Of a stretch of DNA of 33,650 nt, positions 3,291 through 33,650 are shown one piece after another. The notes beneath the pieces were generated by a model. That model ran no database searches and was not told the DNA's origin. It worked only from the letters and a program-made list of their open reading frames with translations. Position 1 is the first letter of the stretch. Every line of letters begins with the position of its first letter. Both the position numbers and the translations under genes were made by a program. This DNA is from Candidatus Acidiferrales bacterium (GTDB taxonomy: Bacteria > Acidobacteriota > Terriglobia > Acidiferrales > UBA7541): NCBI GenBank assembly GCA_030037335.1, contig JASHRN010000163.1:1-33650 (forward strand), written 5' to 3'.

Positions 3291-4692
3291 GGTGCGCCTC
3301 CACTTCGAGCTGGATATTTTCTGTTGGATAGACACCCGTGTAGCAGGAAGTGCAGAACGTCCCATCCGTATCTTCGACGGCTGCGCGCAGGCTTTCGAGC
3401 GAAAGATAAGCGAGCGAATCGGCTCCGATAAATTCGCGAATCTGCTCGACGGAATTGCGCGAGGCGATCAGCTCGATTTTTGTGGGCGTATCGATTCCGT
3501 AGTGACACGGAGAGACTGTCGGCGGGCAACTGATACGCATGTGAACTTCCGCTGCGCCGGCCTCGCGCACCATACGGACGATTTTGCGGCTGGTGGTTCC
3601 ACGAACGATGGAATCGTCCACGAGGACGACGCGGCGACCTTCGAGAAGTCGCCGCACGGGATTCAATTTCAAGCGCACGCCGAAATCGCGAATAGACTGC
3701 TCGGGTTCGATAAAAGTGCGGCCGATATAGTGATTGCGGATCAGGCCCATGCGAAATGGAATCCCAGATTCGGCCGCATAGCCTATCGCGGCGGGAACTC
3801 CGGAGTCGGGAACCGGAACTACGACATCGGAAATCGCGGGAGATTCGCGCGCGAGCAATCTGCCGAGTTTTTCGCGGGTGGCATTGACGGGACGGCCAAA
3901 GACGATGCTGTCGGGCCGGGCGAAATAGACGTGCTCGAAGATGCAGTGCTGGTGATTTTTCTCCGGCGCAAAGCGAATCGATTCGAGGCCGCCCTTCGAA
4001 ATGCGCAGCATCTCGCCGGGTTCGACATCACGGACGTATTCGGCACCGATCAAATCGAAAGCACAGGTTTCCGACGCAACTGCCCAAGAATTACGCAGCC
4101 GGCCTAGAGCGAGAGGGCGAAATCCGCGCGGATCACGAACGGCGAGAATCTCATCGCGCGTCAGGATAAGAAGTGAATACGCACCCTCGACCTGGCCGAG
4201 CGCATCGGCGACAGCTCCCGCCAAGTTTCCCACTTTGCTGCGGGCGACAAGATGAACGATTACTTCCGTGTCGCTGGTAGTCTGAAAAATTGAACCTTTG
4301 TGTTCGAGGCTGCGTCGTAATTCGAGAGCATTGGTCAAATTGCCATTGTGAGCCAGTGCGAGCTTGCCCTTATTGCAGTCGCTGGCGAGTGGCTGAGCAT
4401 TGCTGAGCGAAGTATCGCCCGCCGTGGAATAGCGCGTGTGGCCAATGGCCGCAAAGCCGGGCAGCCGGGCAATCACATCCGGTGTGAAGACGTCCTGAAC
4501 AAGGCCCATGCCGCGTTCAAGGCGAAACTGCACGCCATCGGTAGCGGCGATCCCGGCGGATTCCTGTCCGCGGTGCTGCAGGGCATAGAGCCCGAGGTAG
4601 GTGAGCTTGGCGGCTTCCTCTTCGCCGAAGATGCCGAACACACCACACTCGTCGTGAAAGTGGTCGTCGTCGAAATAAAGAATTCTGTTCAT
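3283..4692 (-). CDS. purF: Amidophosphoribosyltransferase (glutamine PRPP amidotransferase)
   Basis: First committed enzyme of de novo purine synthesis: it makes phosphoribosylamine from PRPP and glutamine. The start at 4692 overlaps the purL stop as ATGA, so translation is probably coupled; an upstream ATG at 4767 lies inside purL and gives a non-conserved extension. The N-terminus has a 15-residue propeptide before Cys16 ([10 protein letters not shown]), the Ntn-type nucleophile exposed after cleavage. The PRPP loop is at 355-368 ([14 protein letters not shown]). Cysteines in HCIFEH, in ISCPP (C389) and in FCTSC (C447, C450) match the 4Fe-4S cluster ligands of the Bacillus-type enzyme, so this is an oxygen-sensitive Fe-S form. 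Length 469 is normal. Confidence 0.96.
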
Positions 4693-25121: not shown

Positions 25122-25151
25122 AAAAAACCCGGCGGGAATGCCGCCGGGTTT
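25122..25151 (-). terminator. Intrinsic terminator after lon
   Basis: On the minus strand an 11-base perfect stem (AAACCCGGCGG, loop CATTC, CCGCCGGGTTT) runs into a T6 tract (complement of 25122-25127). It lies 32 bases beyond the lon stop. On the plus strand only three T follow, so it acts mainly on lon. Confidence 0.93.
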
Positions 25152-30716: not shown

Positions 30717-33101
30717 CTAGAACGTTGAGAATGCAAGGAAGAGGTCAGGGTAGCCGTTGAGGTCGTTATTCACCAAATTACTCGCGGCCGAATAGAACGC
30801 TACAATCGTTCCATTGCCGTTGATTACGGGGGTGGCAGAGGCTCCATTCGCCGCCACCAGCACGGCAGGGATGCTTACCAGTGCGGAAGTTGCGCTGCAC
30901 GAACTGCTCTGGCCCAAACAACTGTTCCTCACATAGATATTCTCCAGCCCATTCACATTAGTCGATACGAGATTGCTCGCCTGCGACGCGAACGCGACAT
31001 ACTGGCCGGTATTCTCGATGCTTGGGTTCTCGCTCAACGCATTTCCGGGCGTCGAACCGTCCGTCGCGACGGAGATGAGCACATTCTGAGGCGTGCATCC
31101 CGTCGGCGCTCCCTCGCATGTATCTCTCTCATAGATTTCCTGCACGCCGCCGGAAGCGGCCCCGAGAACTGTTGCTGTCGAGGCGAAGGCGATGACCCGG
31201 CCGTCGGGAGTCATTGCGGGCTCAATGCTCGCGCCGTCGGCCGGCGTCGTTCCGTCCGGTGTCGATATCAATTGCGGAGGACTTGTCGTACATCCTTTGG
31301 TGATACCGATGCAAAGACCCGCGCGATAAATTTCCGCGGCGCCTGTTGTCCCGCTTACCAGGTTGGTCGCGGTGGAGGCAAATGCGACAAACTGGCCCGT
31401 CTTGCTTGAAACCACCACCGGTTCGAAGCTTGATCCATTCGCGGGCGTTCCGTTTACCGCTGAAACCAGATACGTTTGCGGCATACACGTTGATGGCTGG
31501 CTAAGGCAGGTATCACGAACGTAGATTTCTTGTGCGCCTCCCGTCGGCGTAGCAACCAAGTTAGTGGCCGTCGAGGCAAACGCGACGAACCTTCCTTCAG
31601 TGCTGATGGAAGGTTCAATGGACGGGCCATTTCCTGCGCTGATTCCGTCGCTTCCGATGGACATGAGATTTGTGGTTACAGTGCATCCGCTGGTGGCGGT
31701 AATACATGGATTTGTCGCGAATATCTGGGAAGTTGTTCCATCAAATGCGATTCCGGATACAAGATCAGAAGCCAGCGAAACATACGCGACGATCTCTGCT
31801 CCCGTGGAATTCACCACCGGAGAGAAACTGGGCCCATTAGCGATCACGTTGGCAGCGTTCACGTCCACCAATACTTCCCGCGGTGCACAATCCACGGTAT
31901 CGCCCAAGCATGTGTCACGCACGAAAATATTTGAAGTTCCGTTCGTCAGTGGATTCAGGACTGGCGGTGGGATAAGCGTCGTAGTCTGCAGCAAATTTGT
32001 TGATGACGAGGCATATGCCACATACCTGCCGGTTGTGTCGATCGAAGGACCGACCTGACTGGGTGGGCTCACTCCATCGTTGGCTTGTGCGCCATCCGGA
32101 GCCAAATCCACAAGCGTTGGGAGGCCCGCTCCGGATGTGGCGGGTACGACGGAGAAATACAAAACCTGTGATGCTCCGCCACCCGGAGCGGGATTCTCCA
32201 CTTGTACGGTGTACGTACCCGCCGCAGCAAGATCTCCAGTAGCCAAATCTGCGGTGAGCGAGCCAGAACTCTTGAAAGTTGTAGGCCGGCCTGTGCCGTT
32301 GACCAGCACCTCGCTCCCCAGGTCGAAGCCGCTCCCAGAGACGGTAATCGTCGTGGTCACCGTGGAACCAGCTACAACGCTGAGTGGGCTGACTGAACTT
32401 AGCACCGGGGTTGGATTTACCACATCCAAGGCTACCGTATTCGACAGTCCTCCGCCGGGGGGTTTCAGATTCGGAGCCGGTGGATTCAGCACCGCGATGT
32501 TAATCGGGCCAGTGTTCGACATGTCTGAGGCTTGCAAGGTCACGGTCAATTCGGTGTTGGAAATAAAATTCGTGGTGCGATCTGCACCGTCAACCGTAGC
32601 AATCGATATGCTCGTGCCAGGTACGCCAACGAAGTTTGATCCCAGAATCGTTACGTCGGCAGTTGAGCCGCCCGCAGCAATAGTGTTTGGAGTAAGCGAC
32701 GAAATTTGTGGGACGGGAAGCGCATTCGGATTGATGACGAGCGTCACCGTATTGGATGTTCCTCCGCCCGGTGCTGGCGAGAAAACGGTTACATTGATGC
32801 TCTGCGAAATCGGGATGTCGCTGGGGCTGACCACTGTCGTCAGCTGATTGCTGGAAAGAAATATAGTGTTGCTGCTGCCGTTGCTGAAAACTCTCGGGGT
32901 GCCATTAAATTCAATTTCCGAACTTGGAGCGAATCCGGTGCCGTTCACAGTCAATGTAAACGTCGTGGAGTCTGCTGTGACACTCGCTGGGCTGAGAGAG
33001 GTAATCCCAGGTATGGGGAGATTGATATATTCCTCACAGGATGCAAAAAGCAGGATCCCCAGGAGCAATCCGGTCGTCGTAAGTTTTGTCCGTAGGCTCA
33101 A
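30717..33101 (-). CDS. Lipoprotein with three IPT/TIG domains and a cysteine-paired propeller
   Basis: A 794-residue secreted lipoprotein with lipobox LLFASC and lipid-acceptor Cys22. The start is a TTG at 33101; an in-frame TAA lies six codons upstream and no better codon precedes the lipobox. Three immunoglobulin-like IPT/TIG domains span about 30-124, 129-228 and 230-319 (each with a GxxF and a PGGG-SNTV turn). The rest (330-794) holds seven repeats of about 65 residues ending in VAFASxATNLV-like strands, a TolB/WD40-like propeller. Six loops carry a CX6C pair: 398/405, 466/473, 532/539, 597/604, 662/669 and 728/735. Such pairs probably form disulfides in the periplasm or outside the cell. 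The function is probably binding at the envelope; the ligand is unknown. Confidence 0.88.
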   Translation of the reverse strand: MSLRTKLTTTGLLLGILLFASCEEYINLPIPGITSLSPASVTADSTTFTLTVNGTGFAPSSEIEFNGTPRVFSNGSSNTIFLSSNQLTTVVSPSDIPISQSINVTVFSPAPGGGTSNTVTLVINPNALPVPQISSLTPNTIAAGGSTADVTILGSNFVGVPGTSISIATVDGADRTTNFISNTELTVTLQASDMSNTGPINIAVLNPPAPNLKPPGGGLSNTVALDVVNPTPVLSSVSPLSVVAGSTVTTTITVSGSGFDLGSEVLVNGTGRPTTFKSSGSLTADLATGDLAAAGTYTVQVENPAPGGGASQVLYFSVVPATSGAGLPTLVDLAPDGAQANDGVSPPSQVGPSIDTTGRYVAYASSSTNLLQTTTLIPPPVLNPLTNGTSNIFVRDTCLGDTVDCAPREVLVDVNAANVIANGPSFSPVVNSTGAEIVAYVSLASDLVSGIAFDGTTSQIFATNPCITATSGCTVTTNLMSIGSDGISAGNGPSIEPSISTEGRFVAFASTATNLVATPTGGAQEIYVRDTCLSQPSTCMPQTYLVSAVNGTPANGSSFEPVVVSSKTGQFVAFASTATNLVSGTTGAAEIYRAGLCIGITKGCTTSPPQLISTPDGTTPADGASIEPAMTPDGRVIAFASTATVLGAASGGVQEIYERDTCEGAPTGCTPQNVLISVATDGSTPGNALSENPSIENTGQYVAFASQASNLVSTNVNGLENIYVRNSCLGQSSSCSATSALVSIPAVLVAANGASATPVINGNGTIVAFYSAASNLVNNDLNGYPDLFLAFSTF

Positions 33102-33328
33102 GCCTGTTTTCTTCCCTTAACGCTTGCTCGAATCAACTTTGCGAAAAAACAATCAGAGAGAGTACTAAAGATGACAATTTCGGGCAATTAGGATGCTCCA
33201 CAGTTTTGATATATCGACAGGTCGCCTGGCAGTATTCCAGAATTCATATTTTACTCTCATTTTCAAGAGTTCCTGCGCTTTGCTCTACGGCCCGATTCTG
33301 TGAACCCCTTAATTTTCTTTGCATTGCT

Positions 33329-33468
33329 GGGCATCCCTTTCCGTTTGAGTCTGGTTTTGGACGTGCTTGCTCTCAGGCAGCGGGTCGCACCAAAAAAGTG
33401 CTCAGTAAGTAGCACTCCCGGGGTGATGTCCCAAGGGCTGCGCGAGTTAGTCTAGGCGCAGCCTTTTT
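33329..33468 (+). ncRNA. Candidate structured small RNA of unknown class
   Basis: Stems readable on the plus strand: GGGCATC (33329-33335) pairs with GATG-T-CCC (33425-33432, one bulged T), enclosing a stem TTTTG-gac-GTGC (33355-33366) with GCAC-CAAAA (33387-33395) and a hairpin AGTGCT-8 bases-AGCACT (33397-33416). An intrinsic terminator follows immediately. The 5' end is unknown, and one stem base is shared between the A-rich arm and the hairpin at most. Size (about 140-170 bases) is compatible with several housekeeping RNAs, including 6S RNA, but I recognise no specific consensus. Confidence 0.4.
33436..33468 (+). terminator. Intrinsic terminator with no gene upstream on its strand
   Basis: A perfect 8-base stem GGCTGCGC (33436-33443) and GCGCAGCC (33456-33463) with a 12-base loop leads directly into TTTTT (33464-33468). 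On the minus strand the hairpin is followed by CCTTGGG, not T, so it works only for plus-strand transcription. Since the plus strand has no gene in the preceding 400 bases or in the lipoprotein gene, it most likely ends a non-coding transcript. Confidence 0.88.
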
Positions 33469-33514
33469 GTTATTCCAAAGCTCCATCAGGAGCACCAAGC
33501 GGGAGGTTCACGCA

Positions 33515-33650
33515 CTAAGGGCTCTTCCTGCGTGAAGCTTCCATCAGGTCCCAGGCAGCATCGGGGAAATCGACAAAGTCGTTGAATTCTCCGGCACCGC
33601 GCAGCCACAATCCACCATCAATGACCACGCATTCGCCGTTTACGTATTCC
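33515..33650 (-). CDS. C-terminal end of a short-chain dehydrogenase/reductase, cut by window edge
   Basis: The last 45 codons read from the window edge to a TAG at 33515. The segment YVNGECVVIDGG followed by LWLRGAGEFNDF is characteristic of the C-terminal region of SDR oxidoreductases of the 2,4-dienoyl-CoA-reductase-like group, in which GxxxVxDGG closes the Rossmann fold. The N-terminal cofactor motif and catalytic Tyr/Lys lie outside the window, so the substrate and NAD(P) preference cannot be stated. The gene converges on the plus-strand terminator at 33436-33468. Confidence 0.85.
   Translation of the reverse strand, partial: EYVNGECVVIDGGLWLRGAGEFNDFVDFPDAAWDLMEASRRKSP

Follow-up and report, generated by a model that had tools for sequence, protein, structure and literature searches.

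A candidate small RNA gene of narrow range ending at an intrinsic terminator in Candidatus Acidiferrales

A terminator in a gap between minus-strand genes

What would a strong plus-strand terminator end, when the genes on both sides of it are read from the minus strand? The question arises in a 33,650-nt stretch of DNA, here called the window, which is one whole contig (C71) of a Candidatus Acidiferrales genome (G000) assembled in 255 contigs. The gap that holds the terminator lies between two minus-strand genes, one starting at 33101 and the other, an SDR gene, stopping at 33515, and we found no real plus-strand gene inside it. The gene starting at 33101 encodes a 794-aa protein with PD40 repeats according to Pfam, in which we also read what we take to be IPT/TIG-like repeats. 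The SDR gene runs into the end of the contig at 33650 and is incomplete; its N-terminal residues 1–209 apparently lie at the end of contig C232 (32112–32738) of the same genome, so that C71 and C232 are probably adjoining contigs. A DNA search of 61 relatives returned a single homologue of the gap sequence (E 3e-13), in G002 (JASHQB010000205.1), a Candidatus Acidiferrales MAG of another species in the same genus, where the gene order around the gap is identical. The features discussed below are as follows.

33150–33202, minus strand: conserved promoter-like element, CATCC-N3-TTGC-N10-CATCTYTAGTA-N-TCT
33237–33256, plus strand: small conserved block GTATTCCAGAATTCATATTT, 14 of 20 positions identical when globally aligned, with diverged sequence around it
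33329–33335, plus strand: GGGCATC, left arm of a proposed closing helix, present here and not conserved in G002
33359–33432, plus strand: conserved core of the candidate small RNA, 56 of 74 aligned bases identical to G002
33388–33425, plus strand: outer short stem of the consensus fold, CACC (33388–33391) with GGTG (33422–33425), enclosing the inner hairpin
33397–33416, plus strand: inner hairpin AGTGC...GCACT of the consensus fold, its outermost A-U pair replaced by C-G in G002
33436–33468, plus strand: intrinsic terminator with an 8-bp perfect stem, a 12-nt loop and T5

An earlier note on this DNA had described a textbook plus-strand terminator, with an 8-base perfect stem and T5, where no gene exists, and this description was confirmed by scanning, by shuffling and by folding. 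The stem arms are GGCTGCGC (33436–33443) and GCGCAGCC (33456–33463), followed by TTTTT at 33464–33468. The 33.65-kb window has two sites, this one included, at which eight or more perfect pairs are followed by T5, compared to a mean of 0.07 such terminators per window in dinucleotide shuffles. The hairpin folds with z = −3.9 relative to shuffles, and its homologue in G002, which keeps the stem with a T-rich tail on the corresponding side, with z = −5.2. Because it stands far above shuffles in both the scan and the fold, we regard the terminator as real; a simple terminator scanner that accepts loops of up to 8 nt missed it for reasons of this loop limit. The other comparable terminator in the window (25126–25150, minus strand) lies just downstream of lon and points the right way. 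The terminator in the gap belongs to no upstream plus-strand gene and lies on the strand of the candidate RNA. Downstream of it there is no plus-strand gene in either species, and the next gene 3’ of it is convergent in both.

Conservation, coding potential and fold of the upstream sequence

The sequence from 33359 to the end of the terminator at 33468 is 75% identical to G002 (81/108), and the remaining gap is 48% identical (110/230, a figure that omits two further conserved blocks; Fisher p 2e-6). In the neighbouring gene the two species agree at only 122 of 363 fourfold-degenerate sites (34%), which is near saturation (p 2e-14 against 33359–33468). This comparison indicates that 33359–33468 is held by purifying selection. 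Within it, the 74-nt core is 76% identical, compared to 51% for the sequence before the core, and its motifs are laid out as GGACGTGCT..CAGCGGGTCGCACC..GTGCTCAGT..GCAC..CCCGGGGTGATGTCC. With fourfold sites as the yardstick, even a single diverged homologue can back an intergenic prediction that was based on sequence alone.

This conservation is not that of a peptide. The two cores differ by a 4-nt indel, which breaks the reading frame, and by their stop codons; together these exclude a shared peptide in any frame, and Pfam gave no match to the core translations. Two small ORFs, one of 51 aa with a GTG start (33300–33455) and one of nine codons with an ATG at 33426, were rejected as their frame is lost in G002. 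The conserved sequence thus combines selection with an absence of shared coding capacity, as an intergenic small RNA gene would.

The earlier note had further claimed stacked stems closed by an outer helix, and this part fared less well. In the window GGGCATC can indeed pair with GATG(T)CCC (33425–33432), and inner stems exist. However, G002 reads AGCTAGCCGTAGG at the position of the left arm, and the helix is not conserved because this arm sits in diverged sequence, from which it also follows that the conserved unit begins near 33359. The fold itself is weak: the 149 nt including the terminator give z = −1.77, a value matched by 8 of 200 shuffles, and the sequence upstream of the terminator gives z = −1.06 and −0.66. 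Since this upstream stability is unremarkable, the stacked stems prove nothing by themselves. The consensus fold of the two homologues consists of a stem (33360–33367/33379–33386), the CACC/GGTG stem around the AGTGC/GCACT hairpin, and then the terminator. Covariation across the homologous gaps, here two homologues only, yields one clear compensatory pair, in the 33397–33416 hairpin, and one isolated C-G/G-U pair; CACC/GGTG is invariant in both species, so covariation neither supports nor refutes that stem. On the minus strand, 33390–33420 reads as the inner hairpin and then T6 (AGTGCTACTTACTGAGCACTTTTTT), which may terminate the SDR mRNA in this species; the T6 run is absent in G002.

Range and neighbouring elements

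A sequence model built from the two homologues (R1) found only these two convincing matches, G000 and G002, among 89 family genomes and a 399-genome class sample; the core was not credibly found in the 87 other family genomes or in the 399 class genomes. Pattern searches of IMG/VR viral contigs and DNA searches of phages and plasmids gave no match, and among GTDB r220 contigs the pattern was found once, in the G002 record itself. Weak R1 matches in G065, G014 and G102 were rejected, as they lie inside coding genes or run out of them. Each genome carries a single copy. The candidate thus appears to be restricted to one genus, with two species known, in line with the suggestion of a lineage-specific RNA in the earlier note.

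The genomes G001 and G004 show a different locus. There, with gene names from our own reading of the translations, a TonB/carboxypeptidase-regulatory-domain gene is divergent from the IPT-type gene and followed by porin-like, cytochrome c and SDR genes, the last of them oppositely oriented. G000 and G002 have neither the TonB-type nor the porin-like gene at this position; their SDR gene is turned round, and the candidate RNA takes the place of the missing genes. The cytochrome c gene is likewise not in the window gap 33101–33515. Descent of the RNA from the TonB-type leader was considered and rejected. The words CTCAGT and CCCGGGGTG are common to both, but the alignment fails, the spaced pattern of the two words occurs in G000 and G002 only, and comparison of the candidate with the G001 and G004 leaders revealed no convincing similarity.

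The gap holds a second conserved element, at 33150–33202, which is separate from the small RNA candidate. Of the 89 family genomes, 23 carry it, each in one copy, a far wider conservation than that of the core, and it lies about 50–175 nt upstream of the IPT/PD40 gene wherever that gene was located (about 20 genomes), whatever flanks the other side. From its sequence it looks like a TTGCCC-17-TA(G/C)TCT promoter whose spacer is strongly conserved, possibly as a site for an activator.

Candidate function and comparison with known RNAs

Terminator polarity, the conserved core, the fixed gene order, the absence of shared coding capacity and the fact that no gene follows on that strand all agree with a stand-alone RNA. 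Our leading reading, which we hold with about even confidence, is that the plus strand carries a single-copy, Rho-independent small RNA gene, most likely acting in trans, a mode suggested by the general anatomy of such RNAs. We infer that it is transcribed and that transcription would start upstream, possibly near 33240–33260, giving an RNA of about 210–220 nt; a later start would give about 110 nt. The block at 33237–33256 is the likeliest site of a putative plus-strand promoter, a tentative placement since sigma70-like sites in the gap scored no better than shuffles. The transcript would run through the conserved core, stop at the Rho-independent terminator at 33468, and base-pair with mRNAs by way of conserved segments that are mostly unpaired, such as CUCAGU and CCCGGGG. 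The central claim of the earlier note, an unannotated small RNA with a strong terminator, is thus supported by the syntenic homologue, the kept terminator, selection and the non-coding sequence; its closing helix and its option of a 6S-like RNA are not.

The SDR gene lies head-on to the terminator, only 47 nt away in the window, and in G002 we saw no minus-strand terminator with a T-run before the small RNA region. Both observations would suit a cis-antisense role, in which the convergent RNA pairs with the 3’ end of the SDR mRNA and affects its stability or termination. We consider this rather unlikely: orthologous SDR genes in G001, G003 and G004 have no such RNA and different neighbours, and conservation peaks in the core, at a greater distance from SDR.

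We find it somewhat more doubtful still that the RNA is a conserved but functionless short transcript, made from a promoter that diverges from the PD40/IPT-type gene, with only the terminator mattering, as a shield for the SDR gene. The divergent TonB-type gene of G001 and G004 means that such a promoter may be ancestral, and the terminator is the strongest element of the locus, but the higher identity of the core than of the sequence before it (76% versus 51%) would be left unexplained. A new genus-restricted class of structured RNA in Acidiferrales, with a function other than mRNA pairing (protein binding, for example) and having arisen at the place that a TonB-type transporter gene cluster occupies in related species, seems improbable.

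The best R1 match outside the genus (G127, 21.7 bits) falls in a xanthine-dehydrogenase-type iron-sulfur gene, on the codons for QCGYCTPGV, and a similar, weaker match in G020, at the family level, reads LQCGFCTPGLM. The G002 core can itself be read as AQCISCTPGVM (tblastn E 0.008 over 11 residues), which raises the possibility that the core is a decayed fragment of a xanthine/CO dehydrogenase small subunit with its CxxCTPG motif. This is very improbable. Over the 399 genomes searched the E value is about 0.2, Pfam found nothing and no other part of the protein is present; furthermore, the window copy is frame-shifted and has neither cysteine, and a neutral relic would not hold 75% identity with fourfold sites at 34%. 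We attribute the likeness to chance, the motif being very common.

A 6S RNA or other known Rfam RNA, suggested only by the general look of stacked stems and a terminator, can be dismissed: the Rfam search called for in the earlier note gave no family at gathering or relaxed thresholds, none even at E < 1, and the genome’s own 6S RNA (RF00013, 59.5 bits, above the cut-off) lies on contig C216 at 4238–4429, which refutes a 6S-like identity here.

A limited literature search found little on regulatory RNAs of Acidobacteria. With two species known, the candidate would extend the bacterial small RNAs modestly and is no surprise. The genomes of this lineage used here are metagenome-assembled, and the candidate offers a concrete target for metatranscriptomes. 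Compared with known systems, it would resemble 6S RNA (RF00013) as a stand-alone, structured-looking RNA, with no similarity to it otherwise. Like riboswitches and attenuators it has a conserved, structured-looking part directly before a terminator; however, there is no downstream same-strand gene in either species and the next gene is convergent, and thus a riboswitch, attenuator or leader was rejected. Rho-independent trans-acting small RNAs differ in having known relatives and recognised promoters, yet the candidate is like them in its intergenic site on its own strand, its non-coding nature, its core followed by a terminator, and its narrow range.
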